From: Citrifermentans bemidjiense Bem
GTDB taxonomy: Bacteria; Desulfobacterota; Desulfuromonadia; Geobacterales; Geobacteraceae
Direction of reading: 5' to 3'
DNA: 64,000 nucleotides
Assembly (NCBI RefSeq): GCF_000020725.1
Contig: NC_011146.1
Coordinates: 3,657,501 to 3,721,500 of the forward strand
Shown here: one piece after another, positions 19,699-34,865 of the stretch
Numbering within the stretch: the stretch's first letter is position 1
Layout: every line of letters starts with the position of its first letter
Notes under the pieces: generated by a model
Databases searched by the model: none
What the model was told of the DNA's origin: nothing
The model's input: only the letters and a program-made list of their open reading frames with translations
Translations under genes and position numbers: made by a program

Positions 19699-21128
19699 GC
19701 CCCACCTCCCAATTGCCCGGCCGCCTCATGCAACAGCTGCTGCAACGGCGCCGGGAGCCAGAGCCCCATGGTCAGGATGATTCCCATGAGCAGCAAGGGG
19801 GGAAGTACCGTCGGGAGCGTGTCGCGGTACCTGGTCCTCTCGATGTCTGCCGGCACCTCGCCCAGCACCACCGGAAGCACGGTCGAAGCCATGCCTATGA
19901 AGATGAGCGCCAGGAAGACGAGGAAGAGCCCCCCGGTCCAGAAGTTCCCCTGAACGAAGGCGGAGGAGACGATGAGGAACTCACTCACGAAGGGGGAGAA
20001 CGGGGGGGAGCCGGTGATGGCGAGAAAGGCGGCCAGAAAGAGCGCCCCCGACCAGGGGGTGCGCCTGAGCGCACCGCGCACCGTAGTGGTGCTCTTCGAG
20101 TTGTAGGCCCGGTGTATGTTGCCGCAGGAGAGGAAGAGGACCCCCTTGGTCATCGAGTTGTTGATCATGTGCAGAAGTCCGGCGAAGAGCGCACCCTTGC
20201 CCAGCCCAAGCGCCACCGTGATGATGCCTATGTGCTCGACGCTCGAGTAGGCGAGCATCCTCTTGAAATCGCTCTGCCTCGCCATGAAGACGGCGGCAAA
20301 CGCCATGGAGATAAGCCCCATGACGAGGAGCACACCCTGGAACATGGCGCCTTCGGTCGAGGCGACGGCGATCTGGTACACCCTCAAGAGCGCCAGGAGC
20401 GCACAGTTCACCAGCCCCCCGGCGAGCAGCGCCCCCACCAGCCCCGGCGCCTCGCCGTAGGCGTCCGGTTTCCAGGTGTGCAGCGGGGCGAGCCCCATCT
20501 TCGAGCCGAAGCCGACCAGGAGGAAGATGAAGGCCGCGTGGCGCCAGCCGGGGTGGAGCGCCGCGGCGTCGGAGATGAGCGAAGGGAGCAGAAGGGTCAC
20601 GTCCTGCTTGGCCACGATGGTGGAGTAAGCCAGGAAGAAGAGTCCCAAAAGGGCGATGGCGATCCCGACCGAGCAGATCAGTAGGTACTTCCAGGTGGCC
20701 TCGATGGAGCGGGCGTTATGGTTGAAGTAGATGAGCGGCGCCATGGTAAGCGTGGTCGCTTCGAGAGCGATCCAGAGGAGCCCCAGGTGCTGCGAGATGG
20801 TGACCAGGGTCATGGCGGAGAGGCAGACCAAGAGCGCCGCGCAAAGAACCCGGTTCGGACGTCTTCTGCGGTAGGCTAAGTACCCGACGGCGTAGAAGGC
20901 GCATACCGCGAAGAGGACGCTGTTACTGATCAGGGCGAGCTTTCCCAGCGGGTCGAGCAGTATCCACCCGGCCGGGGAGACGGGAGGGGTGTCGACGAGG
21001 AGCGCTCCCACCAGGAAAAGCTGCGCCAGCGCGAATACCGGCAGCACCAGGGCGCGCTTCCTGTTGTCGGGGATCAGCCAGGCGATCAGGGCCCCCGCGA
21101 GGGGGAGAAGGACCAGGGCCCACATCAT
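19695..21128 (-). CDS. ehrD: Ehr complex antiporter-like subunit (HyfF/NuoN type)
   Basis: A 477-residue polytopic protein with about 14 membrane helices, of the Mrp-antiporter/NuoL-M-N family. The conserved segment around FKRMLAYSSVEHIGIITVALG and the 'FGSKMGLAPLHTWKPDAYGEAPG' region (key Lys and His) are present. Such subunits form the proton or sodium channel of complex I and group 4 hydrogenases. It is shorter than NuoL and lacks its long lateral helix, matching HyfF. It is coupled to ehrL by a 4-bp overlap and to ehrC by a 4-bp gap. Confidence 0.88.
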   Translation of the reverse strand: MMWALVLLPLAGALIAWLIPDNRKRALVLPVFALAQLFLVGALLVDTPPVSPAGWILLDPLGKLALISNSVLFAVCAFYAVGYLAYRRRRPNRVLCAALLVCLSAMTLVTISQHLGLLWIALEATTLTMAPLIYFNHNARSIEATWKYLLICSVGIAIALLGLFFLAYSTIVAKQDVTLLLPSLISDAAALHPGWRHAAFIFLLVGFGSKMGLAPLHTWKPDAYGEAPGLVGALLAGGLVNCALLALLRVYQIAVASTEGAMFQGVLLVMGLISMAFAAVFMARQSDFKRMLAYSSVEHIGIITVALGLGKGALFAGLLHMINNSMTKGVLFLSCGNIHRAYNSKSTTTVRGALRRTPWSGALFLAAFLAITGSPPFSPFVSEFLIVSSAFVQGNFWTGGLFLVFLALIFIGMASTVLPVVLGEVPADIERTRYRDTLPTVLPPLLLMGIILTMGLWLPAPLQQLLHEAAGQLGGGA

Positions 21129-21132: not shown

Positions 21133-21774
21133 TTATTCCTCCCTGAGCGCGCTGAGCCTCGACGTGTCGATGCTCGAGAATTCGCGGCTTATGTGATTGA
21201 TGACGATCCCCATGACGAAGATGCCTACCAGAAGGTCCAGAAGCGCTCCCGCCTCTACCATGACCGGCATGGCGTCGGCCAGAAGCAGGCCGAAGAGGAA
21301 GATCCCGTTCTCCATGAGGAGGTAACCCAGGACCTGCGAGATCGCCTTGCGCCTTCCCATGAGCACCAGGAACCCGCACATGAGGGTCGCCAGCGACGCC
21401 GGGACCACCAAAAGCCCCGCGTGCTCCGGGGCCAGCGGCAGCTTCGCCGCGAAGATGAAGGCGAGCGTGGTGAAGAGCGCCCCCAACACCAGCGAGGGGA
21501 TGTAGCCGATGAAGGGCTGGAACTCGCGCTCGATCTCGGCCCTTTTGATGGCACGGATGATCAGGAACGGGATCAGCGCCCCCTTTACCAGCACGATGCT
21601 CACCACGATGAAGGCGAGGTGCCAGGAGAAGGGGTGCACCAGCGCCGGAAGGATGCCCAAGAGCACCCCCTGCAGCGCCACCGAGCGCACGGAGAAGTTG
21701 AGCCTGCTGGTCCCGAGGACGGCGAAGTTCAAAAGCAGGCAGAGCACCAGGAATTGGTCGGCCAGGGAGTTCAT
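21133..21774 (-). CDS. ehrC: Ehr complex small membrane subunit (HyfE type)
   Basis: A 213-residue integral membrane protein with about six helices. The pattern (NFAVLGTSRLNFSVRSVALQG near the start, then MGRRKAISQVLGYLLMENGI around residue 135) is that of HyfE/NuoK-MnhC-like subunits. It probably contributes to the membrane ion pathway between the antiporter-like subunits and EhrB. It is packed between ehrB and ehrD with 4-bp gaps on both sides, so a single transcript is expected. Confidence 0.82.
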   Translation of the reverse strand: MNSLADQFLVLCLLLNFAVLGTSRLNFSVRSVALQGVLLGILPALVHPFSWHLAFIVVSIVLVKGALIPFLIIRAIKRAEIEREFQPFIGYIPSLVLGALFTTLAFIFAAKLPLAPEHAGLLVVPASLATLMCGFLVLMGRRKAISQVLGYLLMENGIFLFGLLLADAMPVMVEAGALLDLLVGIFVMGIVINHISREFSSIDTSRLSALREE

Positions 21775-21778: not shown

Positions 21779-22687
21779 TCACCTCACTACCAGAACCAGG
21801 GAAAAGGCGGTCAGTATCATGGCCGCCACCAAAAGCTGCGGCACGCGGATCAGCCTCAGGCGCGCCATCACCGATTCCACCACGCCGATGGCGACGGCCA
21901 GAACCAGCATGGAGAGCGCGAAGAGGGCCCAGTCGACAAACGCGTTCCCCGAGGCGAAGGGGACGGCGATGTTCACGAAGAGAGCGCCCAGGAGATAGAG
22001 CTTCAAGGCGGCGCCGTAGAGGATGCAGCCGAAATAGGGACCGCTGTGGTCCAGCACCATCACCTCGTGGATCATGGTGAGTTCCAGGTGGGTGTTGGGG
22101 TCGTCGAACGGTATGCGGCAGTTCTCCGCCAAAAGGACCACGAAGAGCCCCGCGAGAAGCAGTATCAAAGAGGCGCCGGCGGCAACCCACACCGGAGAGG
22201 TGACGTGGTTCAGCATGGGGGTGAGGCTCATGGTCCCGGAGAGCCTGGTCAAAGTGATCAGGGCGAAGAAGAGCGCCGGTTCGGCGAGGCAGGAGAAGGT
22301 GACCTCGCGGGCCGCTCCCATCCCCTCGAAACTGGAGCCGGTATCGAGGGCGGCCACCGTGGTGAAGAAGCGCCCCAGGGCGAAGAGATAGGCGAAGAGG
22401 ATCATGTCCCCCTCGAAGGAGACCGGTGCGGCGTGCTTGCCGAGCGGCACCAACAGCGCCGCGAAGAGGGTGGCCGCCAGGGTGACCGCCGGGCCGGCTT
22501 TGAAGATCCAGGTGGTGGTGTCGGAGATGACCACCCCCTTGCGCATCAGCCGCGACAGGTCGTAGTAGGGCTGCAGGAACGGAGCCCCCACCCTGCCGGC
22601 GAAGGCCGCCTTGGTCTTGCCGATCACCCCCAAAAGCAGCGGGGGCATGGCCAGAACCAGCACCATATGGAAGAGCGTGTCGATCAT
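21779..22687 (-). CDS. ehrB: Ehr complex membrane anchor subunit (HyfC/NuoH type)
   Basis: A 302-residue protein with eight or so helices, homologous to NuoH/HyfC/HycD. This subunit links the peripheral arm to the membrane arm at the quinone-chamber end in complex I. Visible features: 'GRVGAPFLQPYYDLSRLMRKG' near residue 35 and 'RIPFDDPNTHLELTMIHEVM' (acidic loop of the family). The start is ATG 22687 with GGAG upstream. Immediately upstream is a dispersed palindrome interrupted by an insertion sequence, so this gene is now separated from ehrA by about 1.5 kb. Confidence 0.88.
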   Translation of the reverse strand: MIDTLFHMVLVLAMPPLLLGVIGKTKAAFAGRVGAPFLQPYYDLSRLMRKGVVISDTTTWIFKAGPAVTLAATLFAALLVPLGKHAAPVSFEGDMILFAYLFALGRFFTTVAALDTGSSFEGMGAAREVTFSCLAEPALFFALITLTRLSGTMSLTPMLNHVTSPVWVAAGASLILLLAGLFVVLLAENCRIPFDDPNTHLELTMIHEVMVLDHSGPYFGCILYGAALKLYLLGALFVNIAVPFASGNAFVDWALFALSMLVLAVAIGVVESVMARLRLIRVPQLLVAAMILTAFSLVLVVR

Positions 22688-22891: not shown

Positions 22892-24161
22892 TGTATGGAC
22901 CGGGGTCAAGGTTTACAGTTGTTCGGGGACATGGTTTACACTTTTTGTTCTTTGAGATCGACTTCTGCGATTTTCTGGCTGCAGAAATAAACGCCATATT
23001 CGCCATCGCGTATGGTTGGCCGAAATGCCACCGGCTGCCCCCTGAGCGCCTTCGCGAGGCGCACACATCGGCCTTTGAATGACACCTTACCCTCGGCCTG
23101 GACCTTTCGGATCTCGTCGTCTGGGGCGTACTGAATCTCGGGCAGTATTTCTGAGTAAGTCCGCCGGCTAGGCTTATAACGCGTCATCGGAGTTTCCATA
23201 CCTAGTGATTCGTGTGGGCGCTCCAAGTTGTAGCAATGCCTGAAGGTGTCGAATCTAAGCTGGCAGTCAGCTAGGTCTTCGAAGACTCTTCCAGCGATTG
23301 CTTCTGCAACCAGAGTTCTGTGAAACCGCTCGTCCTTACCCTGTGTTTGAGGATGATAGGGGCGAGAGTGGCTGACCCGTATCTCGTTTCTGATAAGCCA
23401 GACCGTTAATGGCGTAAGGTCGTTGTATTGATCGTTACCCCATGGGCTGCCATTGTCCATGGTCATTCGATATGGCAATCCATATTGCCTGAATGCCTCA
23501 ATCAAAGCAGCTTTAACCGTTTCTGTTCGCTCATTGGCACAGGCTACAAGCACCACACTAAACCGGGAATGGTCATCCAGAACAGTCAACGGATGACAGC
23601 GACCATGATGCTTCATCGGAATACTGCCCTTGAAATCCATCTGCCATAGGTCGTTTGGGTATGGGTGCTCGAACCGTTGGAAAGCAGTATGTTTATCTGA
23701 CTCAGCTGGATCAATGCAGCCGTTGCGGCGCAAGATTGCTGTTATGGTCGAAGGTACAGGCACCCCCTGATGCCCAAGTTTTTCAAGACGCTTACGTAGC
23801 TTACGTGCTCCCCAAGCCTGATGTTCTTCGCGAAGCTTGAGAATAGCATCTTCGGTCGCAGTGACCGTCTTATGTGGACAGGTCAGTGGCTTGCGAGATA
23901 AGTCAATTAGGCCTTCGACGCCGGTTTCAAGGAACCTGCTAATCCATTTGTAGCCGGTCGGACGGCTGATGTTAAAGCGTTTGCAAAGGAAGGCTATGTT
24001 GCTGCCTTCCTGCAACGCCAAATGAACGAACTCGAATCTCAGGGTCATAGTATCCACCGGTCGCCAAGGCATGGTCTCCCTCCTCCGAGGAAAGGTCATT
24101 CTTGGCAAAAGTGTTAACTATGTCCCCGAACATTTGTAAACCATGTCCCCAGTCTATACAT
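22892..24161 (-). mobile_element. IS481-family insertion sequence, complete
   Basis: An element of about 1.27 kb bounded by 50-bp imperfect inverted repeats (22892-22941 and 24111-24160; about 42 of 50 positions match). Each end contains two copies of a GGGGACATGGTTTACA-like motif, probably paired transposase binding sites. The ends begin TGTAT. It carries one transposase gene. Flanking CCGT is present on both sides (22888-22891 and 24162-24165), the likely 4-bp target duplication. Removing the IS joins CCCCCTCCCG to TCAAGGGAGGGGG, restoring an intact copy of the element at 51.7 kb. It therefore inserted into an intergenic palindrome between ehrA and ehrB. Confidence 0.9.
22936..24072 (-). 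CDS. IS481-family DDE transposase
   Basis: A 378-residue transposase. The N-terminal half is a helix-turn-helix pair (SNIAFLCKRFNISRPTGYKW). The DDE catalytic core shows WQMDFKG, TMDNGSPWGND and GKDERFHRTL. A C-terminal extension of about 70 residues follows PMTRYKPS. The ATG at 24072 has GGAGGGAG at good spacing; the upstream in-frame ATG at 24108 does not. No frameshift or stop is seen, so the enzyme looks active. The gene reads in the same direction as the ehr genes, so its promoter could drive ehrB onward. Confidence 0.92.
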   Translation of the reverse strand: MPWRPVDTMTLRFEFVHLALQEGSNIAFLCKRFNISRPTGYKWISRFLETGVEGLIDLSRKPLTCPHKTVTATEDAILKLREEHQAWGARKLRKRLEKLGHQGVPVPSTITAILRRNGCIDPAESDKHTAFQRFEHPYPNDLWQMDFKGSIPMKHHGRCHPLTVLDDHSRFSVVLVACANERTETVKAALIEAFRQYGLPYRMTMDNGSPWGNDQYNDLTPLTVWLIRNEIRVSHSRPYHPQTQGKDERFHRTLVAEAIAGRVFEDLADCQLRFDTFRHCYNLERPHESLGMETPMTRYKPSRRTYSEILPEIQYAPDDEIRKVQAEGKVSFKGRCVRLAKALRGQPVAFRPTIRDGEYGVYFCSQKIAEVDLKEQKV

Positions 24162-24230
24162 CCGTCAAGGGAGGGGGAGAGCTGAAAACTGTCGTTAAGT
24201 TCCAGCTTGGCAACTGGACGCTCCACCTCT

Positions 24231-26210
24231 CTAATGCACCCACAACATCAGCAGCAACAGCGTGGCGAAGATGTAGAGGATGTAGACGTGCACCTCTCCG
24301 TGCTGCAGGCGCCGCACGAAGGCAAAGCCAACGCCTATGATGCTTATCGTCGGCAGCACGATGCGCTGCAGCACGGTCTCCTCGGGGGTGTAGCTCAGCT
24401 TAGTTGCAGCCGGCGCCACCCCGGCCACCTTGCCGGCGCTGATGCGCGAGCGGACCAGCGTCGAGGCGAGGGAGCCGAACAGGGCGCCGAAAGAGCTCCC
24501 GCTGTACTGCATGCTGGCGGCCGGGCGGATATAGCCGCATCCCCAGGTCGGTCCGGCGCCGGCGGGGACCGCCTTGGCCCTCCCCTTGAGGAAGAAAAAC
24601 AGGGCAGCGGAGAGGACCAGCAGGCTTCCTCCGGCGACCGCGAACCACGCAGGCGCCACCGGAAGCGTTACGGCGTCCGCGCCGGGGCCTGCGAGTGCCG
24701 CGACTGCCGGGTTCACCAGCGCGAGGAAAAGCTGCGGAAAGAGCCCCCCGGTTAAGGCGAGCAGGGCAAGAAGCCCCATCGGGGCGAGCATGCTGAAGGG
24801 GGCCTCGTGGCTGCGGGCGGAGCCATCGGTGCGCGGGGCGCCCAAGAAGGCGATGCCGTAGAGCTTCACGAAGCTGATCACGGCGACGCCGCCGACAAGC
24901 GCCAGCACCGGCGCCCCCAGCGCAAGGTACGGCGCCCCCGCCTGGGCCTCCCCGAAGAAGCCTAAGTACAGGAGCATCTCGCTGGCAAAGCCGTTGAAGG
25001 GGGGAAGCCCGCAGATGGCGACGGCCCCGCAAAGCGAGAGGAAGGCGGTGCGGGGCATGCGCTTGGCGAGCCCCCCCATGCGGTCCAGTTCGCGAGTGCC
25101 GGCGGCATGGATCACGCTCCCCGCCGAAAAGAAGAGGAGCGGCTTGAAGATGGCGTGGTTCAGGACGTGGAACAGGGCGGCGGCGAGCCCCAGGTAGGCA
25201 AGCAGCCGGTTGCCGCTTACCGCGGCGAGGAGGTAGACGCCGATCCCGGTGCAGATGATGCCCAGGTTCTCGATGCTGCTGTAGGCCAAAAGCCGCTTGA
25301 TGTCCTTTTGCGCCGAGGCGATGCAGATTCCCATCAAGGCAGAGGTGAGGCCGGCGGCGGTGAGAAGCGCGCCCCACCAGAAAGGGGGATGGGGGAAAAA
25401 GGAGATGACCCGCAAGAGGCCGTAGATGCCGACCTTCAGCATCACCCCGGAGAGAAGGGCGGAGACGTGGCTCGGGGCGTTGGCGTGGGCGGACGGGAGC
25501 CAGATGTGCAGCGGCATGAGCCCCGCCTTGGAACCGAAGCCGCCGAGTGCCGCGCAAAAAATAAGGGTCGAGAGCCCGGCAGTTAGCTGCAGCGAGCCGG
25601 CGGCGGGGAATTGGAAGGCGCCGGTGGAGAAAAAGAGCGTGGAGAAAAGGACCATCAGCGCCCCCGCCCCCAGGTGGCTCGCCACCAGGTACACCGTCCC
25701 CGCTCCCCTCACCTCCTCCTCGGCGTGTTCCGCCACCAGCAGGAAATAGCCGGAGACGGCCATCACCTCCCAGGCGATCAGGAAGAGCGCGCCGTTTCGG
25801 GCAACCACCACCAGCGCCATGGCGCAGGCCAAGAGCCCGTAGAAGAAGGTGACGCTCCGCTCCGAGGCGCGGCGCTCGGCTGCGGGCCAGTAACCAAGGG
25901 CATAGAGGGCGCCTGCCGGAAAGACAAGGAAGATGGGGATCAGGAAGAATGCAGAGAGAGGGTCTAGAGCGATTTCGCAGGGGCCGAAAGGGAGGTTCCA
26001 GTTGAGGGTGAAGCTTGATGTTTGTCGCCAGAAGAGCAGATAGACCAGCGACGGTAAAGCAATCAGCGACGAGAGTAGCGCGGCTGCCGCGGCCAATCGC
26101 TGTCCCAGCGGGCCATGCCTTAGCAACACACCGGGAAGGCCGGAACAGCCGGCAAGGGTTATGGCGCAGAGGACCAAGAGGGCGGGGTCCCGCAACATGT
26201 CAAAAAGCAT
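24231..26210 (-). CDS. ehrA: Ehr complex antiporter-like subunit A, copy 1 (HyfB/NuoL type)
   Basis: A 659-residue polytopic protein of the NuoL/HyfB family with about 15-16 membrane helices. Conserved regions: LIAWEVMAVSGYFLLV, 'FGSKAGLMPLHIWLPSAHANAPSHVSAL' (channel Lys and His), DIKRLLAYSSIENLGII and LPPFNGFASEMLLY. The C-terminus carries the HyfB/HycC-type GCGYIRPAASMQYSGSSF. I use ATG 26210, which has AGGA six bases upstream; a TTG two codons earlier is also in frame. It is closely similar to 29230-31230, most likely through duplication. An own promoter lies at 26400-26428, and an IS now separates it from ehrB. Confidence 0.9.
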   Translation of the reverse strand: MLFDMLRDPALLVLCAITLAGCSGLPGVLLRHGPLGQRLAAAAALLSSLIALPSLVYLLFWRQTSSFTLNWNLPFGPCEIALDPLSAFFLIPIFLVFPAGALYALGYWPAAERRASERSVTFFYGLLACAMALVVVARNGALFLIAWEVMAVSGYFLLVAEHAEEEVRGAGTVYLVASHLGAGALMVLFSTLFFSTGAFQFPAAGSLQLTAGLSTLIFCAALGGFGSKAGLMPLHIWLPSAHANAPSHVSALLSGVMLKVGIYGLLRVISFFPHPPFWWGALLTAAGLTSALMGICIASAQKDIKRLLAYSSIENLGIICTGIGVYLLAAVSGNRLLAYLGLAAALFHVLNHAIFKPLLFFSAGSVIHAAGTRELDRMGGLAKRMPRTAFLSLCGAVAICGLPPFNGFASEMLLYLGFFGEAQAGAPYLALGAPVLALVGGVAVISFVKLYGIAFLGAPRTDGSARSHEAPFSMLAPMGLLALLALTGGLFPQLFLALVNPAVAALAGPGADAVTLPVAPAWFAVAGGSLLVLSAALFFFLKGRAKAVPAGAGPTWGCGYIRPAASMQYSGSSFGALFGSLASTLVRSRISAGKVAGVAPAATKLSYTPEETVLQRIVLPTISIIGVGFAFVRRLQHGEVHVYILYIFATLLLLMLWVH

Positions 26211-26399
26211 AGCCAATCCTTTCGAAACGGATCGTCACGCCGCTCCCTTTGGGGAGCAGTATTCTCTCATCAAGTTTCAACCTCTCCCGCGCGGGCTGAG
26301 CCGGTCAGGAAAGGGGAGCGAAAAAGTTGCTGCGTGACTGCGGTGGTGGCACGGCGCGGAGTCCGCCGGTAGCGCCCCAAAGGGGGGTCCGAGTGGCTC

Positions 26400-26428
26400 A
26401 ACATACTCCGTGAGAACAAATTTGTCAA
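26400..26428 (-). promoter_or_regulatory. Sigma-70 type promoter for ehrA copy 1
   Basis: On the minus strand TTGACA (26423-26428) and TATGTT (26400-26405) are 17 bp apart, with a T-rich UP-like stretch directly upstream. Transcription would start near 26393, giving a leader of about 180 nt. The rest of 26211-26622, the divergent region with the cytochrome gene, also has small hairpins (CTCC-TTTG-GGAG type). A weak plus-strand promoter, TTGTTT-N16-TATCAT (26495-26522), may serve the cytochrome. Confidence 0.6.
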
Positions 26429-26622
26429 AAAAAGATTTCTAATATTAAGAGGCTCCCGTAAAACAACACTATATGGCAATACGCCTCAAGTTACTTGTTT
26501 TCCTGCCGACAACAGTTATCATTAAAGGCAAAACGTCCCCCTCTTACGAACAGCGTTATACGGCTGGAGAAATTCCCGGCCGGATGTCAGTAAGTTTCCC
26601 GACCCCTTATGGAGGAGCAGCT

Positions 26623-27099
26623 GTGAAGAATCATGTTTGGCGCCCCCTCTACGTGGTGCTTGCGGTAGTGGCCCTGGTGCTTTTGGCCAGGAAGGTCCTG
26701 GTCCCGGCCGACTTCGGCATCGGGCCGCGCGGGTACATGTACGGCTGGCACCGCCCCAGCAACGAGCAGCAGTGGAAAGATGTCAAGGTGAAGTACCGGA
26801 CCGCCGTCTACTGCATGGAGTGCCACCGGGACAAGTACGACGAGATGAAAGAGTCCCCGCACCGCAACATCAACTGCGAGAACTGCCACGGCGCCGCCGG
26901 AAACCACCCGGACGATCCCCGCTACCTCACCATCGACCGCAGCCGCGAGCTCTGCGCCCGCTGCCACACCCGCCTCCCCTACCCCACCAGCAGCCGCGGC
27001 GTCATGAAGGGGGTCGATCCGAAGACGCACCACGTAGGCCTTGACTGCGTCACCTGCCATTGGCCGCACGACCCGAGGAAGGAGGGGCACCAGAGATGA
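26623..27099 (+). CDS. Membrane-anchored tetraheme c-type cytochrome (CbcS-like)
   Basis: A 158-residue protein with an uncleaved N-terminal helix (about 5-22) and a periplasmic domain with four CxxCH heme motifs: CMECH (64), CENCH (85), CARCH (111) and CVTCH (142). I use the GTG at 26623 because GGAGGAG lies 7 bp before it; the frame is open to 26473, but those extra residues look non-coding. It is coupled by ATGA overlap to an FeS protein and then to an NrfD-like protein. Together they form a quinol-oxidoreductase cassette that resembles the Cbc4 (CbcSTU) complex described for Geobacter. It would carry electrons between menaquinol and periplasmic cytochromes. Confidence 0.85.
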   Translation: MKNHVWRPLYVVLAVVALVLLARKVLVPADFGIGPRGYMYGWHRPSNEQQWKDVKVKYRTAVYCMECHRDKYDEMKESPHRNINCENCHGAAGNHPDDPRYLTIDRSRELCARCHTRLPYPTSSRGVMKGVDPKTHHVGLDCVTCHWPHDPRKEGHQR

Positions 27100-27878
27100 T
27101 CGACAGAAGAACTTTTTGCAAGAACACGCTGCTCATCGCCGGGGGCCTCGCGCTCCCGCTCTCGGCGCTGGAACTCTTCGACCCGAAGCGGCTTTTGGCC
27201 GAGAAGGACCAAAAAGGGGCGCGCTGGGTGTTCCTGGTGGACACCCGCAAATGCGTCGGCTGCGGTTTCTGCGTCAAGGGGTGCAAGGTGGAGAACGAGG
27301 TTCCCTATGACGCCAACGTGACCCGCACCTGGGTCGAGCGCTACCTGGTCACCAGCGACAGCAAGACCCACATCGACTCCCCCAAGGGGGCGCGCGACGG
27401 CTTCCCAAGGAAGGAGGTCGAGATAGGGCACGGAAAGCTGGAGGAGGTCCGCGACGAGGATCTCGAGAAGGCGTTCTTCGTCCCCAAGCTCTGCAACCAG
27501 TGCGACAATCCCCCCTGCGTCCAGGTCTGCCCGGTGGGGGCGACCTACCAAACCGAGGACGGTGTGGTGCTGGTGGACCGTAGCTGGTGCATCGGCTGCG
27601 GCTACTGCATCATGGGGTGCCCATACGGGGTCCGCTTCTTCCACCCGGTGTACCACGTGGCCGACAAGTGCAACTTCTGCTACCACCGGATCAGCAAGGG
27701 GATGCAGACCGCCTGCGTGGACAGCTGCGCTTTCGGGGCCAGGCGCATCGGGAACCTCAGGGACCCCGAGGACCCGGTCACCAAGGTGATCATGACCGAG
27801 CGGGTCAACGTCCTCAAAGAGGAGTACGGCACCAAGCCGCAGGTCTTCTACCTGGGGCTTTCCAAGGAGGTGAAGTAG
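27096..27878 (+). CDS. Four-cluster iron-sulfur subunit of quinol oxidoreductase (CbcT/NrfC-like)
   Basis: A 260-residue ferredoxin-like protein. The N-terminus (MIDRRTFCKNTLLIAGGLAL) looks like a Tat signal, so it is probably exported folded with its clusters. Four 4Fe-4S sites are visible: CVGCGFCVKGC (53-63), CNQCDNPPCVQVCP, CIGCGYCIMGCP and a split CNFC...CVDSC, the NrfC/HybA/PsrB arrangement. It should relay electrons between the NrfD-type membrane subunit and the tetraheme cytochrome. The ATG overlaps the stop of the cytochrome gene; the NrfD gene starts 2 bp after its stop. Confidence 0.9.
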   Translation: MIDRRTFCKNTLLIAGGLALPLSALELFDPKRLLAEKDQKGARWVFLVDTRKCVGCGFCVKGCKVENEVPYDANVTRTWVERYLVTSDSKTHIDSPKGARDGFPRKEVEIGHGKLEEVRDEDLEKAFFVPKLCNQCDNPPCVQVCPVGATYQTEDGVVLVDRSWCIGCGYCIMGCPYGVRFFHPVYHVADKCNFCYHRISKGMQTACVDSCAFGARRIGNLRDPEDPVTKVIMTERVNVLKEEYGTKPQVFYLGLSKEVK

Positions 27879-27880
27879 CC

Positions 27881-29119
27881 ATGATGGTGCACGGAGAAGC
27901 CTGGACCCTCAAAGAATTCTTCACCTACCCCAACGAGTACATCTACTGGACCATCCAGATCGTGATGTATCCCTTCATGACCGGCCTCGTGGCCGGGGCC
28001 TTCGTGCTCTCCTCGCTGTACCACGTCTTCGGCGTGAAACAGCTGAAAGGGATCGCGCGCTTTTCGCTGGTCTTTTCCTTCGCGCTGCTGCCGGTCGCCA
28101 TGCTACCGCTCATGCTGCACCTGCAGCAGCCGCTAAGGGGTATCGAGGTGATGCTGACGCCTCATTTCACCTCGGCCATCGCCGCCTTCGGCATCGTCTT
28201 CACCACCTACGGCATGATCGTCGCCTCCGAGCTCTGGTTCGTCTACCGCAAGCACTTCGTCGAAACAGCGCTGGCCTTGAAGGCTAAAGAGCGGCGCGGC
28301 GCGGGCGAGCAGTTCGCCTGTCTCCTTTTCTCCGCGCTCACCATGGGCGCCTACGACGTGAGCCACGAGGCGCTGGAGGCGGACGAGCGGGCGGTGAAGA
28401 AGCTTGCCGCCGCCGGGATTCCCGTCGCCTGCTTCCTGCACGGCTACGCCGGATTCATCTTCGGCTCGGTGAAGGCGAACGCCCTTTGGATGACGCCGCT
28501 CATGCCGGTCATCTTCATCTGCTCCGCGGTGGTTTCGGGGATTGCGCTCTGCATCCTGACCTACATCGTCACCATGGAGATCAGGAAGGCGCTGGCGGCC
28601 AGGCGTCCCGAACTCCCCAGCAAGGAGGAGCTGAAGAGCGCCGAGAGTCAGGTAGTGGTGATGACCTCGCGCTACCTGCTCATGTTCATGGTCGCAGCCA
28701 TCACGCTGGAGCTGCTCGACTTGGTCTTCAGGGGGTACACGGCTGTGAAATCATGGGACATCCTGAGAAGCGTCATCTACGAGCGGGATTTCGTGAACAT
28801 CTTCGTGGTGCAGTACGGGCTGGGGAACCTGGTCCCACTGGTGCTGTTCCTCGTCCCGGGGCTCACCATCCGGCGCGCCATCCTGGGGACGGCGCTGGTG
28901 CTACTCGGGGTTTTCATGATGCGCTGGAACGTGGTCATCGGCGGCCAGGCCTTCTCCTCGTCCTTCTCGGGCTTCATGCACTACACCCTGCCCATCTGGC
29001 CCGACAGCATGGAAACCTTCAAGGAAGGGCTAGGCGGCGCACTCTTGGTGGCCGTGGTCCCCTTCTGCCTGTTCTGGATCCTGAACAAGGTGATGCCCGT
29101 CTTCAAGGAGACGCACTAA
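27881..29119 (+). CDS. NrfD/PsrC-like menaquinol-oxidising membrane subunit (CbcU-like)
   Basis: A 412-residue integral membrane protein with about ten helices of the NrfD/PsrC/HybB family, which binds and oxidises or reduces menaquinol without heme. The N-terminal 'EFFTYPNEYIYWTIQIVMYP' and the first helix bundle (VAGAFVLSSLYHVFG) are typical. It completes the cytochrome/FeS/NrfD cassette. Its 3' end faces the second ehrA copy, with a C-rich palindrome (29129-29155) between them. Whether the cassette works toward acceptors or toward quinone reduction cannot be told from sequence. Confidence 0.88.
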   Translation: MMVHGEAWTLKEFFTYPNEYIYWTIQIVMYPFMTGLVAGAFVLSSLYHVFGVKQLKGIARFSLVFSFALLPVAMLPLMLHLQQPLRGIEVMLTPHFTSAIAAFGIVFTTYGMIVASELWFVYRKHFVETALALKAKERRGAGEQFACLLFSALTMGAYDVSHEALEADERAVKKLAAAGIPVACFLHGYAGFIFGSVKANALWMTPLMPVIFICSAVVSGIALCILTYIVTMEIRKALAARRPELPSKEELKSAESQVVVMTSRYLLMFMVAAITLELLDLVFRGYTAVKSWDILRSVIYERDFVNIFVVQYGLGNLVPLVLFLVPGLTIRRAILGTALVLLGVFMMRWNVVIGGQAFSSSFSGFMHYTLPIWPDSMETFKEGLGGALLVAVVPFCLFWILNKVMPVFKETH

Positions 29120-29125
29120 TTGGAG

Positions 29126-29229
29126 AAGAGTCCCCCCCTCCCGCAAGGGGAGGGGAACCTGGAGCGGCTCTCCCTGATATTTTCCGATGAACCTTTGCGA
29201 AGGGGGGACAGGGGGGATTCCCCTCACTC
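29126..29229. repeat. C-rich palindrome between convergent genes
   Basis: CCCCTCCCGCAAGGGGAGGGG forms a hairpin at about 29132-29155, and the segment ends in a run of G blocks (GAAGGGGGGACAGGGGGGA). It looks like an eroded relative of the elements at 22.8 and 51.7 kb and may end transcription from both sides. Confidence 0.5.
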
Positions 29230-31230
29230 CTAGCGGCTGGTGAGCGCCAGAAGCACCACGAGGGTGATGAAGGTGTAGAAAATGTAGATGTTCAGCTTGC
29301 CGTGCTGCAGCCTGCGGACCGGCAGCGCCTTTTCGAACAGGTATTCCAGGAAGGGGAGATAGATCCGCTCCAGCACGGTCTCAGGGACGTGGCTTGCAAA
29401 CCGGGCCCGCTCGGGAAAGAGCCCCGTCACCTCCTCCCGGTGCACCTCGGGGCGCAGCACGATCTTGAACCAGCTCACCAAGGTCGCGCCGAAGGAGCTC
29501 GCGGTGTATTGCATGGCGCTCGTGGGTCTCAGGTAGCCGCAGCCCCAGGTGGGGCCTGAGCCGACCGGGAGCCTCGTTGCGCGCCGCTGCAGCAGATACG
29601 CCGCCAGCAGCGCGGCCGTGATAAGCCCTGCGGCCAGCGCCGAGACCCAGGTAAACGGGACCAGGTTCTCGATCCATTCCCCGGAGAGGGAGGAGCGGTA
29701 GACCGAGAGCGCGTTGTTGAGCGGCTTGGCTAAAAGTCCCGGCGCGACCCCTATCAAGGTGCAGCAAAGAGCCAACACCCCCATCGGCGCCAACATCCCC
29801 CCGGGCGCCTCGTGTCCCCCCGCATGCTCTTCGGAGCGGGGCGCCCCCAGAAAAGCAATCCCGAACACCTTGACGAAGCAGGCCACGGCCAGCCCCCCCA
29901 CCAGCGCCAGCACGGGGGCGGTAAGCGCAGGGAACATCCCCGACAGCCCCCCCGTGGAACTGATGGCGGTAAAGGAGCCCAGGTAGATCATCAGCTCGCT
30001 CACGAAGCCGTTCAACGGGGGGAGCCCGCAGATGGCGACGGCGCCTGCCAGGAAGAAGAGCGCGGTGTACGGGAGGCGGCGCGCCACCCCGCCCATGAGG
30101 TCGATTTCCCTGGTGCCGGTGGCGTGGATGACCGAACCGGCGGAAAGAAAGAGCAGCGCCTTGAAAAGAGCGTGGTTCACCACGTGCAGCAGCGCCCCCG
30201 CCACCCCCAGCGCCGTCAGCGCCGGGTTCCCCTGACTCTCCCCTATGAGCGCGATGCCGATCCCCATCATGATGATGCCGATGTTCTCGATGCTGTGATA
30301 GGCCAGGAGCCTCTTGATGTCGTGCTGCGCTATGGCGAAGGCCACCCCGAGGACGCCGGAGACAAGCCCCAGGACCAGCACGGTCCCCCCCCACCAAAGG
30401 GGGGGATCGGAAAAGGCGGAAAAGACGCGCATCATGCCGTAAATGCCGGTCTTCAAGACGATGCCGGAGAGGATGGCGGAGATGTGGCTGGGGGCGTTCG
30501 CGTGCGCCGAAGGGAGCCAGATGTGCAGCGGCATGCAGCCGGCCTTCAGGCCGAACCCCAGGATGGCGGTGAGAAAGATGGCGGCGGCGGGCCCCGTCTG
30601 CGCCGAAAGCGTGCCGGCCGCGGGGAAAAGCCATTCCCCGGTTTCCCCCTTGAGCAGCGAGAACATGGCGAAGAGCGCCAGCGCGCCCAGGTGCGCCGTG
30701 ATGAGGTAGAGGGTCCCCGCCTCCCGCACCTGGGGCTTTTCATCCTCGGTGGTGAGGGCGAAGTAGGCCGCGAAGGCCATCACCTCCCAGGCGAGCAGGA
30801 AGAGAATCGTGCTCTTCGCGATCAACAGCGTGGTGAGGGACGCCGCCAAAAGCCCCAGGAAAAAAGTGAGCTTGCCGCAGTTGCCGGCATGAAGAGCGGC
30901 GGGCCAATAGGCTACGCCGTAGAGCGCCGCGCAGCCGGTCACGATGAACATCGGAAGCAGGAAGAACCCGGAAAGGGGGTCCACCCCTGCCTCGAAGGGG
31001 CCGAAGGGGAGGCCGGAAGCGATGGTGACTGTGGCGATGGAGGGGGAAAGAAGAGCTATCAGGGCGCCGGAGAGGCCGGCCAGGGAAGCTGCGGCGAGAA
31101 GTGCTGCGGATAGGCGCTGTGCTTGGGCTGAGCCGCGCCGGAAAAGAAGGGGGAGGCCGGAGAGCGCCTGGCAGGCGACGGCGAGCAACAACAGGTAGAT
31201 ACAGGTCGCAGGCTCGCCGGAAAAGATCAT
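29230..31230 (-). CDS. ehrA: Ehr complex antiporter-like subunit A, copy 2 (HyfB/NuoL type)
   Basis: A 666-residue paralogue of the protein at 24231-26210. The two share long near-identical stretches such as MPLHIWLPSAHANAPSH and DIKRLLAYxSIENxGII, the HyfB-type end GCGYLRPTSAMQYTASSF and the closing RRLQHGKLNIYIFY. About 15 helices are expected. I use ATG 31230; the frame is open to 31917 but that part overlaps the upstream regulator gene in another frame. It is coupled to the HTH-PTS gene with a 2-bp gap. If both copies join one complex it would have three antiporter-like channels with EhrD. Confidence 0.88.
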   Translation of the reverse strand: MIFSGEPATCIYLLLLAVACQALSGLPLLFRRGSAQAQRLSAALLAAASLAGLSGALIALLSPSIATVTIASGLPFGPFEAGVDPLSGFFLLPMFIVTGCAALYGVAYWPAALHAGNCGKLTFFLGLLAASLTTLLIAKSTILFLLAWEVMAFAAYFALTTEDEKPQVREAGTLYLITAHLGALALFAMFSLLKGETGEWLFPAAGTLSAQTGPAAAIFLTAILGFGLKAGCMPLHIWLPSAHANAPSHISAILSGIVLKTGIYGMMRVFSAFSDPPLWWGGTVLVLGLVSGVLGVAFAIAQHDIKRLLAYHSIENIGIIMMGIGIALIGESQGNPALTALGVAGALLHVVNHALFKALLFLSAGSVIHATGTREIDLMGGVARRLPYTALFFLAGAVAICGLPPLNGFVSELMIYLGSFTAISSTGGLSGMFPALTAPVLALVGGLAVACFVKVFGIAFLGAPRSEEHAGGHEAPGGMLAPMGVLALCCTLIGVAPGLLAKPLNNALSVYRSSLSGEWIENLVPFTWVSALAAGLITAALLAAYLLQRRATRLPVGSGPTWGCGYLRPTSAMQYTASSFGATLVSWFKIVLRPEVHREEVTGLFPERARFASHVPETVLERIYLPFLEYLFEKALPVRRLQHGKLNIYIFYTFITLVVLLALTSR

Positions 31231-31232
31231 GA

Positions 31233-31910
31233 TCAGCTCCTTTTGCCGCGCTCGAAGCGCCGGGCGGCTTCCAGAATGGCCGCGGGGTCGCAGGCGTGGT
31301 TCAAAGTCGCCCTGAATTCGGCATCGTGCAGGGCGTAGGCTAGCCGCGACAAAAGGTGCAGGTGCACCTTCACGGTCGGACTGGTCAGCATGAAGAGAAT
31401 CCTGACCGGCTCGCCGTCGAGAGCGCCGAAATCCACGGCATGCTCCAGGAAACAGAGCGAGATGGCGGGGACCGGCTTGTCCTGCAAGAGGATCGGGTTG
31501 CGGACGTGGGGGATGGCGATCCCGTCCCCGATGGCGGTGGTCCCCAAGGCCTCGCGCGCCAGAAGCACCTGGAGCAGGAACTCCGGGTCCATCCTGGGAG
31601 GGAGCTTCATCAGGCTCACCACGTTTCTCAGCACGGAAAGCTTTTCGTCCCCGGGAACCCCGCAGTGCACCCCGCCCGCCTCCAGTGCCTGGCTCAGGGT
31701 CGGCAACACGACATCCGCCTGCGCCGCCTCGAACAGTTCGGGCGGTACCTTGATGCTGTGGTCGGTCGCCCATTCCAGGAGATCGACGCGGTTGATCCGG
31801 TAACTCCCCTGCACCATGGTGGCCGGCAGCTTTTCCTTCTTGATCCACTTGGCCACCACGCTCTCGTCCACCTTGAGCAGCGTGGCCACTTCCGACGCCT
31901 TCATCAACAT
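31233..31910 (-). CDS. HTH-domain PTS IIA-Ntr-like protein
   Basis: A 225-residue two-domain protein. The N-terminus (about 1-55) is an excisionase/MerR-like DNA-binding domain (KASEVATLLKVDESVVAKWI, then YRINRVDLLEW). The C-terminal 150 residues are a PTS EIIA domain of the PtsN (nitrogen) type with the phospho-accepting His135 in GIAIPHVRNP. No sugar permease is nearby, so the role is regulatory. By analogy with PtsN it may sense PEP-linked phosphate flow, and the link to ehrA suggests it controls the Ehr transporter-like complex. That link is inference from operon structure. The ATG at 31910 has GGAG upstream. Confidence 0.85.
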   Translation of the reverse strand: MLMKASEVATLLKVDESVVAKWIKKEKLPATMVQGSYRINRVDLLEWATDHSIKVPPELFEAAQADVVLPTLSQALEAGGVHCGVPGDEKLSVLRNVVSLMKLPPRMDPEFLLQVLLAREALGTTAIGDGIAIPHVRNPILLQDKPVPAISLCFLEHAVDFGALDGEPVRILFMLTSPTVKVHLHLLSRLAYALHDAEFRATLNHACDPAAILEAARRFERGKRS

Positions 31911-32032
31911 CTGTCACTCCACGTGTAGGGGCTGGGAAAAATTTATAACACCCTTAGCGGCAAGACACAAGGTCGTTAATGTAGAAAAGCGCCTGTGTTA
32001 CTGGCGGGTTGCCGGATCGCTCGTCTAATAAA

Positions 32033-32077
32033 AAGGGGACAGGCTACTTTTTTATTAGAAAAGTAGCCTGTCCCCTT
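32033..32077. repeat. Dispersed palindrome GGGGACAGGCTACTTTT, copy 1
   Basis: Two 19-bp arms (AAGGGGACAGGCTACTTTT and its complement) surround a 7-bp centre. Two further copies with nearly the same arms are at 34996-35037 and 59656-59697. It lies beyond the imcH terminator, where its A/T-flanked stem could serve as a second terminator. Confidence 0.9.
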
Positions 32078-32081
32078 CCAT

Positions 32082-32116
32082 AAAAAAAGCCCCCGGATCG
32101 CTCCGGGGGCTTTTTT
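32082..32116. terminator. Bidirectional terminator downstream of imcH
   Basis: GCCCCCGGA and TCCGGGGGC form a stem over a short loop, with seven A before and six T after it. It can end the imcH transcript on the minus strand 19 bp after the stop codon. Confidence 0.92.
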
Positions 32117-32134
32117 GGCTTTTCTGCCAAGATG

Positions 32135-33658
32135 CTAGTGCTTCGCGTGCTGCTCGCCGCCGGGGACGTCCTCCCCGCCGGCTGCATGGCAGTCGCTGCA
32201 GTTGGCCTTGAAGAGCTCGTCGCCGATGTCGACCGGGTGCACGAACTCCTTCACCTGCTTGCCGGCCGGGATGTTCTCCTGCTTCTGGCTCAGCACCGTA
32301 TGGCACATGTTGCAGTCCTTGGAGATGACCTTGCCCGCCGCGGTCTTGTGTTTGCCGTCATGGCAGCGGAAGCAGCCCGGGGTGTAGAAGTGCCCGATAT
32401 GGTTCGGATAGGTGTTCCAGGAGACCTTCATGCTCGGGAAGAAGTTCCTGTTGTAGATGTCCTGAACCACGACGACCGCGTGGTCGATCTCCTTCTGCTT
32501 GCCCTTGGAGACCGCCGGATAGTTCTTGGCATAGTACTCCGGCAGCTCCTTCGCGATGGTGGCCTTGGCCTCTTCCTTTTTGGCGTAAGGCCTGGTGAGG
32601 ATCTCCACCGCGACCTTCTTCAGGTACGGCAGGCTCCCGTCGATCCTTCTGGCCGCGAAAGCCTCGTCCATCTCGATGCCGGGGGCGCGGTAGATGTGGG
32701 CCGGGCGGTTGTGGCAATCGAGGCAGTCCATGACGCGTTTCTGGGACTTGGCCACCTCTTCCTTGCTCAGGGGCTTTTCGCTATCCATGTACTCGGTGAT
32801 CGTGCCGTCCTTCTCCTTGACCGCGATGTACGGGATGTTCAGGCGCTGCCTGTCGGTGGCGATGTAGGTAACCTCCTGGCCGATGTGCCAGTGGATTCCC
32901 TTGGCATGCTCGCTCTTGGGCGTACCGCCGATGTTGATCAGCATGTTGATCTCGCGCGGGGAGTTCTCCTCGTTGGGCGCGTAGTGGTAGAACACCTTCT
33001 GGCGGCCGGCGTAGAACTTCTCGGGCCAGTGGCAGTGCTCGCAGGTGTCGCGAGCCGGGCGGAGGTTGTCGATCGGGGTGCCGATGGTTTCCGGGTAGGT
33101 CTTGAAGAGGACCGCATAGAGCTGCCTCATGCCGGAGATCTTAGCCTTGACGTACCAGGCAGCACCGGGGCCTACGTGGCACTCTACGCATTTAACCTTG
33201 GCGTGCGGGGAGTTGCTCCAGGCGACGTGCTCGGGCTCCATGACCACGTGGCAAAGCTCGCCGCAGAAGGTGGTCGATTCGGTGAACTCGTACCCTTTGA
33301 GCGAGGCGACCGAGACGATGAGCACGAAGATGATGCTGGCGATTACGAAGAAGAGGAACATGTGCCGCTTGTGCGGCTCGTTGAAATCGACCGTGGGGAA
33401 GGGGTGGATCTCCGCCTCTGGGTGCCTGCGCCTCTTCTCCCGCACCAGGTAGGCGCCGAGCGGAACCAGGATAAGGCCCACGATGAGCATCCCCGGGAAG
33501 AGGAAGTAGGTCATCAGTCCGAGGTAAGGTTTCTCCACGCCGGTGATCCCCTCGTACGAGAGGAAACCGATGATGAGACCGGTCGCGGTGACGGCCAGTA
33601 TCATGCCAACCAAGCTGATCAAGTTCCAGGCGTAGCCGGCATATTTCTTTAGTGCCAT
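32135..33658 (-). CDS. imcH: Heptaheme inner-membrane cytochrome ImcH (NapC/NirT type)
   Basis: A 507-residue cytochrome with three membrane helices (about 10-33, 50-72, 98-120). The periplasmic domain has seven heme c sites: one CX3CH (C132-H137, as in NapC) and six CxxCH at 157, 206, 312, 429, 449 and 487. Size, topology and heme count match ImcH of Geobacter sulfurreducens. There it is needed to pass electrons from menaquinol to the periplasm when acceptors of higher redox potential are used. It is monocistronic with its own strong promoter, AAGGAG before the ATG, and a terminator. A general NapC-type role is the alternative. Confidence 0.88.
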   Translation of the reverse strand: MALKKYAGYAWNLISLVGMILAVTATGLIIGFLSYEGITGVEKPYLGLMTYFLFPGMLIVGLILVPLGAYLVREKRRRHPEAEIHPFPTVDFNEPHKRHMFLFFVIASIIFVLIVSVASLKGYEFTESTTFCGELCHVVMEPEHVAWSNSPHAKVKCVECHVGPGAAWYVKAKISGMRQLYAVLFKTYPETIGTPIDNLRPARDTCEHCHWPEKFYAGRQKVFYHYAPNEENSPREINMLINIGGTPKSEHAKGIHWHIGQEVTYIATDRQRLNIPYIAVKEKDGTITEYMDSEKPLSKEEVAKSQKRVMDCLDCHNRPAHIYRAPGIEMDEAFAARRIDGSLPYLKKVAVEILTRPYAKKEEAKATIAKELPEYYAKNYPAVSKGKQKEIDHAVVVVQDIYNRNFFPSMKVSWNTYPNHIGHFYTPGCFRCHDGKHKTAAGKVISKDCNMCHTVLSQKQENIPAGKQVKEFVHPVDIGDELFKANCSDCHAAGGEDVPGGEQHAKH

Positions 33659-33741
33659 GTTCTCTTCTCCTTGCCGTTTCTTATGGTGTCAGCCATTTAG
33701 CGAAAAAGTGCCGTGATATGGCGTAACGATAATAGCGGAGC

Positions 33742-33770
33742 ACATTACACGCGGATATGATCTTTGTCAA
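33742..33770 (-). promoter_or_regulatory. Sigma-70 type promoter of imcH
   Basis: On the minus strand TTGACA (33765-33770) and TAATGT (33742-33747) are 17 bp apart, and an AT-rich stretch with eight T lies directly upstream. Transcription would begin near 33735, giving a leader of about 77 nt. The remaining intergenic part to 33972 shows no other clear signal. Confidence 0.7.
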
Positions 33771-33972
33771 AAAAAAGAAATTTAATATATAAAACAATTG
33801 TCTGCTGAAAAACCACAATGTTTACTAGGGAATGGCGTATATGTACGAGAACAGTGCTGGTTTGCATAAACAGCGTTATATTACTGTAGAAACAGTGGCG
33901 GCACGACTATTTCGGGCTGACAAGGGTGAGGTACCCGCAAAATGACGCGGTATTCGCCCCGCGTAAGCCGGG

Positions 33973-34865
33973 CTACTCGTAGCCGAACTCCTTAAGCATG
34001 CGGCTATTGTCGCTCCACTCGCCGCTAACCCGCACGAAGAGCTCAAGGAACACCTTGGTGTCGAGCAGACGCTCGATCTCCTGCCTGGACTGGGTGCCGA
34101 TTCGTTTCAGCATTTCGCCTTTCTTGCCGATGATGATCCCCTTTTGCGAGTCCCGCTCCACGTTGATGGTGGCGGAGATGGCGACCACGCCGTTTTCACG
34201 CTCCTTGAAGCTGTCCACCACTACGGCGGTGGAATAGGGGACCTCGTCGTGGGTGAGCCGGAAGATCTTCTCGCGCACGATCTCGGCGACGATGAAGCGC
34301 TCCGGGACGTCGGTCAGGATGTCGTCCGGAAAATAGCAGGGTCCCTCCGGGAGCAGGCCGTGCACCAGTTGCACCAGCTGCTCCACTCCGTCTCCGGTAC
34401 CAGCGGAAACCGGGATAATCTCCTTGAAAGGATAGGTATCGCCGTAGCAGGACATCCGCTCCAGCAGCTCCCCCTTGGGGACGAGGTCGATCTTGTTCAT
34501 GACCAGGATCACCGGGGCGTCGACCCCCGAGAGCACCTCCTTGATCATGCCCGCTTCCTTTTCCGGATCTACGGCGCCGTCCACGAGGAACAGGATCAGG
34601 TCCACCCCCTGCACCGAGGAGAGGGCCTCGTCGACCATGAACTTGTTCAGGCGGCTTTTGGCGCGATGGATGCCCGGGGTGTCGATGAAGACGATCTGCC
34701 CCCCGGCACGTTGTGGATCCCCTTGATGCGGTTCCTGGTGGTCTGCGGTTTGTCCGAGGTGATCATCAGCTTTTCACCCAGGATCCGGTTTAAAAGTGTG
34801 GATTTACCTACATTGGGACGCCCCACGATGGAGACGAACCCGGAACGGAACTTCTTTTCTGACAT
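33973..34865 (-). pseudogene. era: GTPase Era, interrupted by a single-base frameshift
   Basis: Era binds 16S rRNA and assists 30S assembly. The N-terminal part (start ATG 34865, AGGAGG upstream) has the P-loop GRPNVGKST and the switch TTRNRIKG. The C-terminal part has the G4 motif NKID, the KH domain ([15 protein letters not shown]) and the normal end. The frame breaks at a run of six C (34699-34704; six G in the coding sense). One extra G would restore [12 protein letters not shown] and join both parts into a full-length protein of about 297 residues. Because Era is normally essential, a sequencing or assembly error in the homopolymer is the simplest explanation. A real mutation or slippage is possible. 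It follows rnc and a radical SAM gene. Confidence 0.88.

Follow-up and report, generated by a model that had tools for sequence, protein, structure and literature searches.

Why should the genes of a respiratory quinol oxidoreductase lie inside the operon of another energy-conserving complex, and on the opposite strand? The question is raised by a stretch of 64,000 nucleotides (hereafter the window) of the Citrifermentans bemidjiense Bem genome, a single contig of 4,615,150 bp (NC_011146.1; window positions 3,657,501 to 3,721,500 of the forward strand). There, a plus-strand cbcSTU cassette (26623–29119) separates two minus-strand ehrA genes of the Ehr (Ech-hydrogenase-related) complex. According to our comparison of relatives, this nested order is a local, orientation-preserving rearrangement that separated cbcSTU from imcH, the gene of a proposed quinol oxidase. 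We favour a clade-specific rearrangement of old neighbours through tandem duplication and reciprocal loss, which would have left the Ehr core genes behind a copy of the imcH promoter, and give this reading a probability of roughly 0.72. In this branch of iron-reducing bacteria, a respiratory cassette inside another energy-conserving operon, together with a doubled imcH control region, suggests that the two systems have come to share their control. We found no description of the nested order or of the doubled control region in the open-access literature (most subscription papers lay outside the reach of the search), and the accessible parts of the G. bemidjiensis genome paper mention neither (PMC2996986; like the other papers cited here by PMC number, it was available in part).

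Gene Order in the Window and in Relatives

In the window, imcH (32135–33658), a gene for a protein with HTH_17 and PTS_EIIA_2 domain matches (31233–31910; hereafter the PTS gene) and ehrA1 (29230–31230) follow one another on the minus strand. Next come cbcS (26623–27099), cbcT (27096–27878) and cbcU (27881–29119) on the plus strand, and then ehrA2 (24231–26210), again on the minus strand and facing cbcS across a divergent intergenic region (26211–26622). A first-pass annotation, made from the sequence alone, had described this divergent region, which indeed exists, and plus-strand genes for a tetraheme cytochrome, an iron–sulfur (FeS) protein and an NrfD-like protein between the ehrA pair, which gene coordinates, motifs and Pfam matches bear out. 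It had also proposed that the cassette was placed into an ehr operon previously running PTS-ehrA-ehrA-ehrB; imcH, just upstream of the interval considered, lay outside it.

A search with ehrA2 across 48 genomes of the family gave matches in 37, and 40 stretches were then mapped with the window genes; from a search of named genomes, the best 80 of 362 matches were used (G-numbers denote genomes of relatives and L-numbers the loci fetched from them, e.g., L040 = G018, L051 = G006, L048 = G026). The nested order, with cbcSTU between ehrA1 and ehrA2, was found in 17 of the 19 same-genus genomes (in G025 it was read across two contigs, L047 and L032). In G018 and G024, PTS-ehrA1-ehrA2-ehrB is uninterrupted and cbcSTU lies directly past imcH, head-to-head, while G006, which belongs to a different genus, shares this order except that one carbonic anhydrase gene separates ehrA1 from ehrA2. 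In these three genomes, A2, A1, PTS and imcH adjoin cbcSTU in the orientations seen in the window. In G038, ehrA1 and ehrA2 are neighbours (306 bp apart) and there is no CbcU match. The operon assumed by the first-pass annotation is thus still to be seen, intact in G018 and G024, with neighbouring ehrA genes in G038 and with one intervening gene in G006, and the nested order is not common to all relatives. Among the best 80 named-genome matches, the nested order occurs in C. bremense, Geomonas paludis, G. anaerohicana, G. diazotrophica, G. propionica, G. oryzae, G. edaphica and strain Red32, and the ancestral one in Geomonas limicola, whose sequence is the same as that of G018 in the compared region; none of the 80 loci is named G. 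sulfurreducens.

Head-to-head imcH and cbcS genes, 251–474 bp apart, were found in 18 of the 80 named loci, among others in Geobacter OR-1, Geotalea, Oryzomonas and Pelotalea, and in L040, L046 and L051, none of which is nested. These 21 loci are those of the 40 stretches and 80 named loci that have imcH, cbcS, cbcU and a divergent gap below 900 bp; in the remaining loci, imcH is more distant, on the opposite side or outside the fetched stretch. Since the head-to-head pair, which may itself be known already, occurs in non-nested genera, it predates the nested order, which is derived. The cassette was therefore indeed placed between the ehrA genes, uninterrupted and nested orders both being found, but it did not come from elsewhere: insertion of a foreign cassette was rejected, cbcSTU having already adjoined imcH in non-nested relatives.

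In a tree of EhrB, EhrC, EhrD and EhrL, the nested genomes form one clade, with G018+G024 as sister group, then G006, then G038. Moreover, a DUF2339 gene follows cbcU in the ancestral loci L040 (G018) and L051 (G006) and in the nested genomes G025, G026 and G027, where it accounts for the extra 2 kb of G026 and G027 (Pfam was run on the G027 copy only); the remaining nested genomes and G024 do not have it after cbcU. Its presence in ancestral and in some nested loci implies that it was part of the moved block, a passenger carried along after cbcU, which fits a block that was duplicated or moved. This gene, which encodes a membrane protein (at L049:9659–11554, for example), follows cbcU in some early-branching genomes, not in the later nested ones.

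Further out in the family, the ehrA pair is variable, which speaks against a simple picture of the ancestral operon. The two genes are side by side in G034, A1-PTS is inverted relative to A2 in G036, G008 and G010, and G037 has an A-PTS-A order. A single operonic ehrA is found in G007, G029, G030 and G033, with another ehrA elsewhere in the last three.

A Doubled Control Region

A promoter profile of imcH was built from 20 non-nested head-to-head loci (L059, identical to L040 in that region, was omitted) and has the form TTTGACAAA, 17–18 bases, TGTAAATT. Scanned over the 64 kb of the window, it ranks first the promoter of imcH itself (TTGACA-17-TAATGT, 33742–33770, minus strand, 29.1 bits) and second a copy facing ehrA2 (TTGACA-17-TATGTT, 26400–26428, minus strand, 28.7 bits); after the overlapping reverse-strand readings of both places (22.2 and 18.0 bits), the next site reaches 15.6 bits. 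With 20-kb stretches scanned for the other nested genomes, the imcH and ehrA2-side sites are the two best in 14 of the 17 nested genomes; in G025 the scanned contig lacks imcH, and in G027 the imcH site comes third (22.41 vs. 22.46).

Motif comparison and repeat search also revealed an upstream element, TATAACGCTGTT, present on the minus strand at the ehrA2/cbcS side (26549–26560) and at the imcH side (33869–33880). In 13 of the 20 training loci, TATAACnnTGTT lies 100–123 bases upstream of TTGACA, the other seven having matches only with three or more mismatches. At the ehrA2 copy of 16 of the 17 nested genomes (G026 being the exception) the distance is 121–132 bases, and at the imcH copy, where G026 and G027 lack the element, it is 110–124 bases. 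Joined into one exact pattern, TATAACNNNGTT-N90..119-TTTGACA, the two elements have exactly two matches genome-wide in 14 of the 17 nested genomes and one in G025, G026 and G027; the 13 two-match nested genomes that were fetched all have them at both expected places, as does the window. Outside the genus, the pattern is found in 11 of 98 genomes of the order, once each, and within 1.5 kb of a CbcU match in 10 of these 11. The reversed pattern, used as control, has no match in the 19 same-genus genomes and five in the 117 genomes of the order.

A motif-free repeat search also pairs 26549–26572 with 33869–33892 (24 nt, 83%), a kind of short two-copy family that often arises by chance. Finally, no other 30 bp of the intergenic region before ehrA2 are as well conserved as the promoter there (0.89 vs. 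a mean of 0.46 in 16 nested genomes), and the corresponding values on the imcH side are 0.86 and 0.51 (15 genomes); gaps were scored as differences, and G026 was left out for its 2-kb gap. No Rfam match at gathering score was found in the whole window, the divergent region included.

As TATAACGCTGTT is kept at imcH where cbcS is gone, it probably serves imcH and not only cbcS, and this motif is a candidate regulator site. Accompanied by an imcH-type promoter about 100–130 bp away, TATAACnnnGTT offers a specific starting point in the search for the regulator of imcH.

Origin of the Nested Order

The ancestral order would have been ehrS-L-D-C-B-A2-A1-PTS-imcH on the minus strand, cbcS-T-U on the plus strand and era on the minus strand, and a single divergent control region would have served both imcH and cbcS. 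Most likely, the segment from ehrA1-PTS-imcH through cbcSTU was duplicated in tandem, after which ehrA1-PTS-imcH would have been lost from one copy and cbcSTU from the other, yielding ehrSLDCB-A2 (minus), cbcSTU (plus), A1-PTS-imcH (minus) and era, with both copies of the control region kept. The core operon ehrA2BCDLS would then start behind the imcH promoter copy, with the upstream element at ancestral-like spacing, and diverge from cbcSTU, while PTS-ehrA1 would become a separate unit behind a terminator-like hairpin after imcH (32083–32116, 15 pairs, from a hairpin scan; sites of this type are no more frequent in the scanned region than in shuffles). Duplication with reciprocal loss is the simplest account in that all orientations are kept and two control regions are left. 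The locus would thus illustrate the re-wiring of an operon by local duplication and loss, with stages surviving in relatives: G. limicola with the old order, and G025–G027 with the DUF2339 passenger.

Several observations weigh against this reading. Relics of the lost genes are missing: searched against 49 junction sequences from nested genomes, the window genes had no match at E 0.01, the best chance-level one being a CbcU match of 65 amino acids in G026 (E 0.010). The ehrA2-proximal spacer gives no alignment above shuffles with the ancestral ehrA1-ehrA2 spacer of G018 and G024, even though one 15-bp match between the G027 and G038 spacers, around the Shine-Dalgarno site, does align. In G026, the imcH promoter ranks fourth in the profile scan and the best ehrA2-side site precedes a carbonic anhydrase gene, itself before ehrA2; both G026 and G027 lack the TATAAC element on the imcH side. 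G018, G024 and G006 have one high profile site each, but belong to the 20 training loci, so that their single match is by construction. The exact two-element pattern is absent from G018 and G024 (mismatched versions exist in G018, G024 and G006) and from 87 of the 98 non-genus genomes, including G006; moreover, it was written after both places had been seen, which is not true of the profile. A plain sigma-70 consensus scan of 24000–34100 returns two sites, one of them the ehrA2 site, against 1.8 in shuffles. Finally, the basal node of the nested clade has a support of 73 in the first tree, while in a second one (IQ-TREE and FastTree, 15 of 22 planned taxa kept) its support is 31 (0.53 in FastTree) and G006 joins G018+G024. 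The polarity of the rearrangement is independent of this weak basal node.

The lack of gene relics and the non-aligning spacer keep viable a cut-and-paste event with a copied control region, in which cbcSTU, together with its whole upstream region, was relocated by about 5 kb to lie between ehrA1 and ehrA2, no gene was duplicated, and part of the imcH promoter was then either kept or newly evolved. Three breakpoints would be enough for such a move, all block orientations being unchanged, none of the 49 junction sequences holds a gene relic, and G026 and G027 keep at imcH the promoter only, devoid of the TATAAC element. Yet a simple move would not give both elements at both places with ancestral-like spacing, as 14 of the 17 nested genomes have them. 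Repeats able to mediate the move were sought within the window only, and those between 24200 and 34000 consist, apart from the upstream-element pair, largely of the two similar ehrA genes. We therefore regard a cut-and-paste origin as unlikely.

Just as improbable, in our judgement, is that the new gene order was fixed by accident and that the ehrA2 site is a generic housekeeping-type promoter, such as any operon start needs. Neutral drift of this kind would agree with the description of Ehr as non-functional (PMC13194489), with ehrA surroundings that vary across the family regardless, with a plain promoter consensus scan no better than shuffles, and with the insertion sequence that splits ehrA2 from ehrB in this genome (see below). 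However, the outgroup-derived imcH profile singles out the ehrA2 site when both strands of the 64 kb are scanned, and this site is the best-conserved part of its region in 16 nested genomes.

Regulatory Link or Physical Unit

If duplication and reciprocal loss gave the Ehr core operon a copy of the imcH promoter, the cell would switch on ImcH, a menaquinol oxidase serving extracellular acceptors, at the same time as the ion-pumping Ehr module and CbcSTU, which would act as a second quinol:cytochrome c oxidoreductase. The arrangement of the promoters suggests a regulatory link among imcH, cbcSTU and ehrA2BCDLS instead of a physical supercomplex. It is a possibility, which we hold tentatively and with more doubt than confidence, that promoter sharing acquired in this way made the three inner-membrane modules ImcH, CbcSTU and Ehr one regulon in the Geomonas/Citrifermentans clade, Ehr then working in menaquinol-linked extracellular respiration. 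ImcH has been proposed as central to respiration at high potential, and Ehr has no established function. An Ehr core operon behind a copy of the imcH promoter would be a concrete hint as to when the cell wants Ehr, and, if the three systems do form one regulon, this so far function-less pump could be studied in menaquinol-linked extracellular respiration. Ehr was reported to be more abundant in formate-grown or syntrophic cells (PMC7894505, PMC8691401), and was called non-functional in the paper cited above for neutral drift.

The first-pass annotation had gone further and seen in the locus a possible single functional unit, in which Ehr ion pumping would be physically coupled to menaquinol oxidation by CbcSTU. 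Of the 117 genomes of the order, 79 have a CbcU match (E 1e-150) and 99 an EhrL match (E 1e-100). Outside the genus, 54 genomes have both, eight of them on one contig, with the two genes within 30 kb in six (G006, G007, G009, G033, G035 and G067, i.e., five genera in two families) and far apart in two (0.77 Mb in G029, 2.9 Mb in G084); in the other 46 they are on different contigs, which is not proof of distance. A physical unit is thus very unlikely: the six genomes with both genes within 30 kb are in its favour, but 48 of 54 lack such closeness (the 46 with different contigs not being decisive), EhrL is missing at E 1e-100 from six of the 60 non-genus genomes that have CbcU, and cbcSTU and ehr lie on opposite strands, hence on separate transcripts. 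The same six genomes show that closeness is not unique to the nested order; the Ehr–Cbc neighbourhood recurs but is not obligatory. A second kind of such neighbourhood was seen in Geomobilimonas luticola (L083), Geobacter sp. AOG1 (L086) and a metagenome-assembled genome (L064), where ehrS is followed on its own strand, about 3.5 kb further downstream, by cbcSTU.

The Cbc, ImcH and Ehr Proteins

CbcS is a tetraheme c-type cytochrome with one N-terminal transmembrane anchor and four CX2CH motifs. Its start was taken as the GTG at 26623, behind a Shine-Dalgarno site (GGAGGAG at 26611), and relatives have ATG or GTG at the equivalent position behind a similar site; on these grounds an ATG at 26473 was rejected. 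CbcT is an FeS protein with a Tat-like RRTFCK start and, as judged by eye, four [4Fe-4S] clusters; it matches Pfam Fer4_11 and others, while its NrfC/DsrO/TtrB-like matches are below cut-off. CbcU is an NrfD-type membrane protein (Pfam NrfD, 1.2e-36). At E 0.001 the genome encodes no other full-length protein like it, and at E 0.01 none of the solved structures is related to CbcU in sequence. A c-type cytochrome, an FeS protein and a b-type or NrfD-like membrane protein are the make-up given for CbcSTU (PMC11434368), with four hemes in CbcS (PMC10989804), and subunits of the NrfD type are considered quinone-binding and perhaps proton-conducting (PMC8076601). All three parts lie together on one strand of the window, and its CbcS has the same number of hemes, so that, by these descriptions, the cassette resembles CbcSTU (Cbc4) of G. 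sulfurreducens and G. metallireducens, from which it differs in lying between ehrA1 and ehrA2, apart from its older head-to-head partner imcH. In G. sulfurreducens, CbcSTU is presumably GSU0068–0070.

The window ImcH has 507 amino acids, three N-terminal transmembrane helices, one membrane-near CX3CH and six CX2CH motifs, i.e., seven hemes, which agrees with the published signature of this proposed quinol oxidase (495–519 amino acids; PMC6295460). Its setting differs from that of the family in that imcH is followed by the PTS gene and ehrA1, and a second copy of its control region stands before ehrA2.

The ehr genes, all on the minus strand, were named by analogy. EhrA1 (666 amino acids) and EhrA2 (659 amino acids) are HyfB/NuoL-like proteins matching Pfam Proton_antipo_M and, at a score below its cut-off, the NCBIfam model 'hydrogenase 4 subunit B'. 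The first-pass annotation rightly took them for minus-strand paralogues, but not for close ones: they are 49% identical over 649 residues. Among solved structures, EhrA2 is best matched by subunit 3 of formate hydrogenlyase (7z0s, E 1.2e-59). The other subunits are encoded by ehrB (21779–22687; NuoH/HyfC-like, Pfam NADHdh, 1.9e-32), ehrC (21133–21774; HyfE/NuoK-like by conserved order and Oxidored_q2, at 25.0 bits just below the cut-off of 26.1), ehrD (19695–21128; a third antiporter-like subunit, Proton_antipo_M, 2e-43), ehrL (18187–19698; HyfG/NuoCD-like large subunit, Complex1_49kDa and Complex1_30kDa) and ehrS (17368–18126; NuoB-like small subunit with a ferredoxin-like part, Oxidored_q6 and Fer4, conserved order).

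In group 4 [NiFe] hydrogenases, CxxC pairs of the large subunit hold the [NiFe] site. A motif count finds no CxxC in EhrL, which therefore has no [NiFe] site. All six subunits, A, B, C, D, L and S, are encoded in one cluster, albeit an interrupted one. The window complex thus agrees with Ehr of G. sulfurreducens (GSU0739–0745), which has hydrogenase-4-like subunits, no [NiFe] centre (PMC13194489, citing Coppi 2005) and likewise two ehrA genes, named EhrA-1 and ehrA-2 (PMC7894505, PMC13194489), but the window operon is split between the two ehrA genes by cbcSTU and again by an insertion sequence. Compared to formate hydrogenlyase and hydrogenase 4 (HycC, HyfB), the EhrA proteins are HyfB-like, but the large subunit lacks [NiFe] ligands. 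By analogy, Ehr can be regarded as a complex-I-like pump.

Repeats and Neighbouring Genes

Between ehrB and ehrA2 lies an IS481 element (22893–24160, minus strand; transposase 22936–24108, NCBIfam transpos_IS481, 290.8 bits for a cut-off of 224), one of nine identical 1268-bp copies in the genome, with inverted ends of about 50 bp and a candidate 4-bp target duplication (CCGT); it adjoins C-rich repeats between the two genes. It is a recent insertion in this genome that parts ehrA2 from ehrBCDLS: it has no match in the mapped loci of relatives, ehrB and ehrA2 are 24 bp apart in G014, and the nested C. bremense likewise has no IS481 separating the two genes. As it sits at the ehrA2-ehrB junction and is absent from those loci, it was rejected as agent of the shuffle. 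The C-rich palindrome between the convergent cbcU and ehrA1 genes (29136–29154), which the first-pass annotation had taken for a border of the cassette, does exist but was rejected as an insertion mark. It belongs to a dispersed repeat resembling repetitive extragenic palindromes (CCCTCCCN2-10GGGAGGG), with 190 exact matches in the genome against five for the reversed control, and three members in the window, at 22802, 29136 and 51704.

Carbonic anhydrase genes (Pfam Pro_CA) lie by ehrA2 in two of the 40 mapped stretches, upstream of it in G026 (L048:13307–14011) and between ehrA1 and ehrA2 in G006 (L051:9915–10511), and were found neither in the window nor in the other loci of these stretches. 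Compared with one another, the two genes give no match at E 1e-4. A link of Ehr to CO2 or bicarbonate is possible.

The 15 proteins compared with Citrifermentans bremense R1 (L053) are 93–100% identical to their counterparts there. Positions 32033–32077, which separate the PTS gene from imcH, include a 22-nt inverted repeat with a 1-nt gap (95% complementary), containing AAGTAGCCTGTCCCC; a similar stretch reads near 35016, perhaps as another dispersed repeat. Finally, the GTPase gene era (33973–34970) is frameshifted, the parts encoding its N- and C-termini being 227 bases apart instead of the 228 found in 17 of 17 compared loci of relatives, which reflects either a real mutation or a sequencing error.

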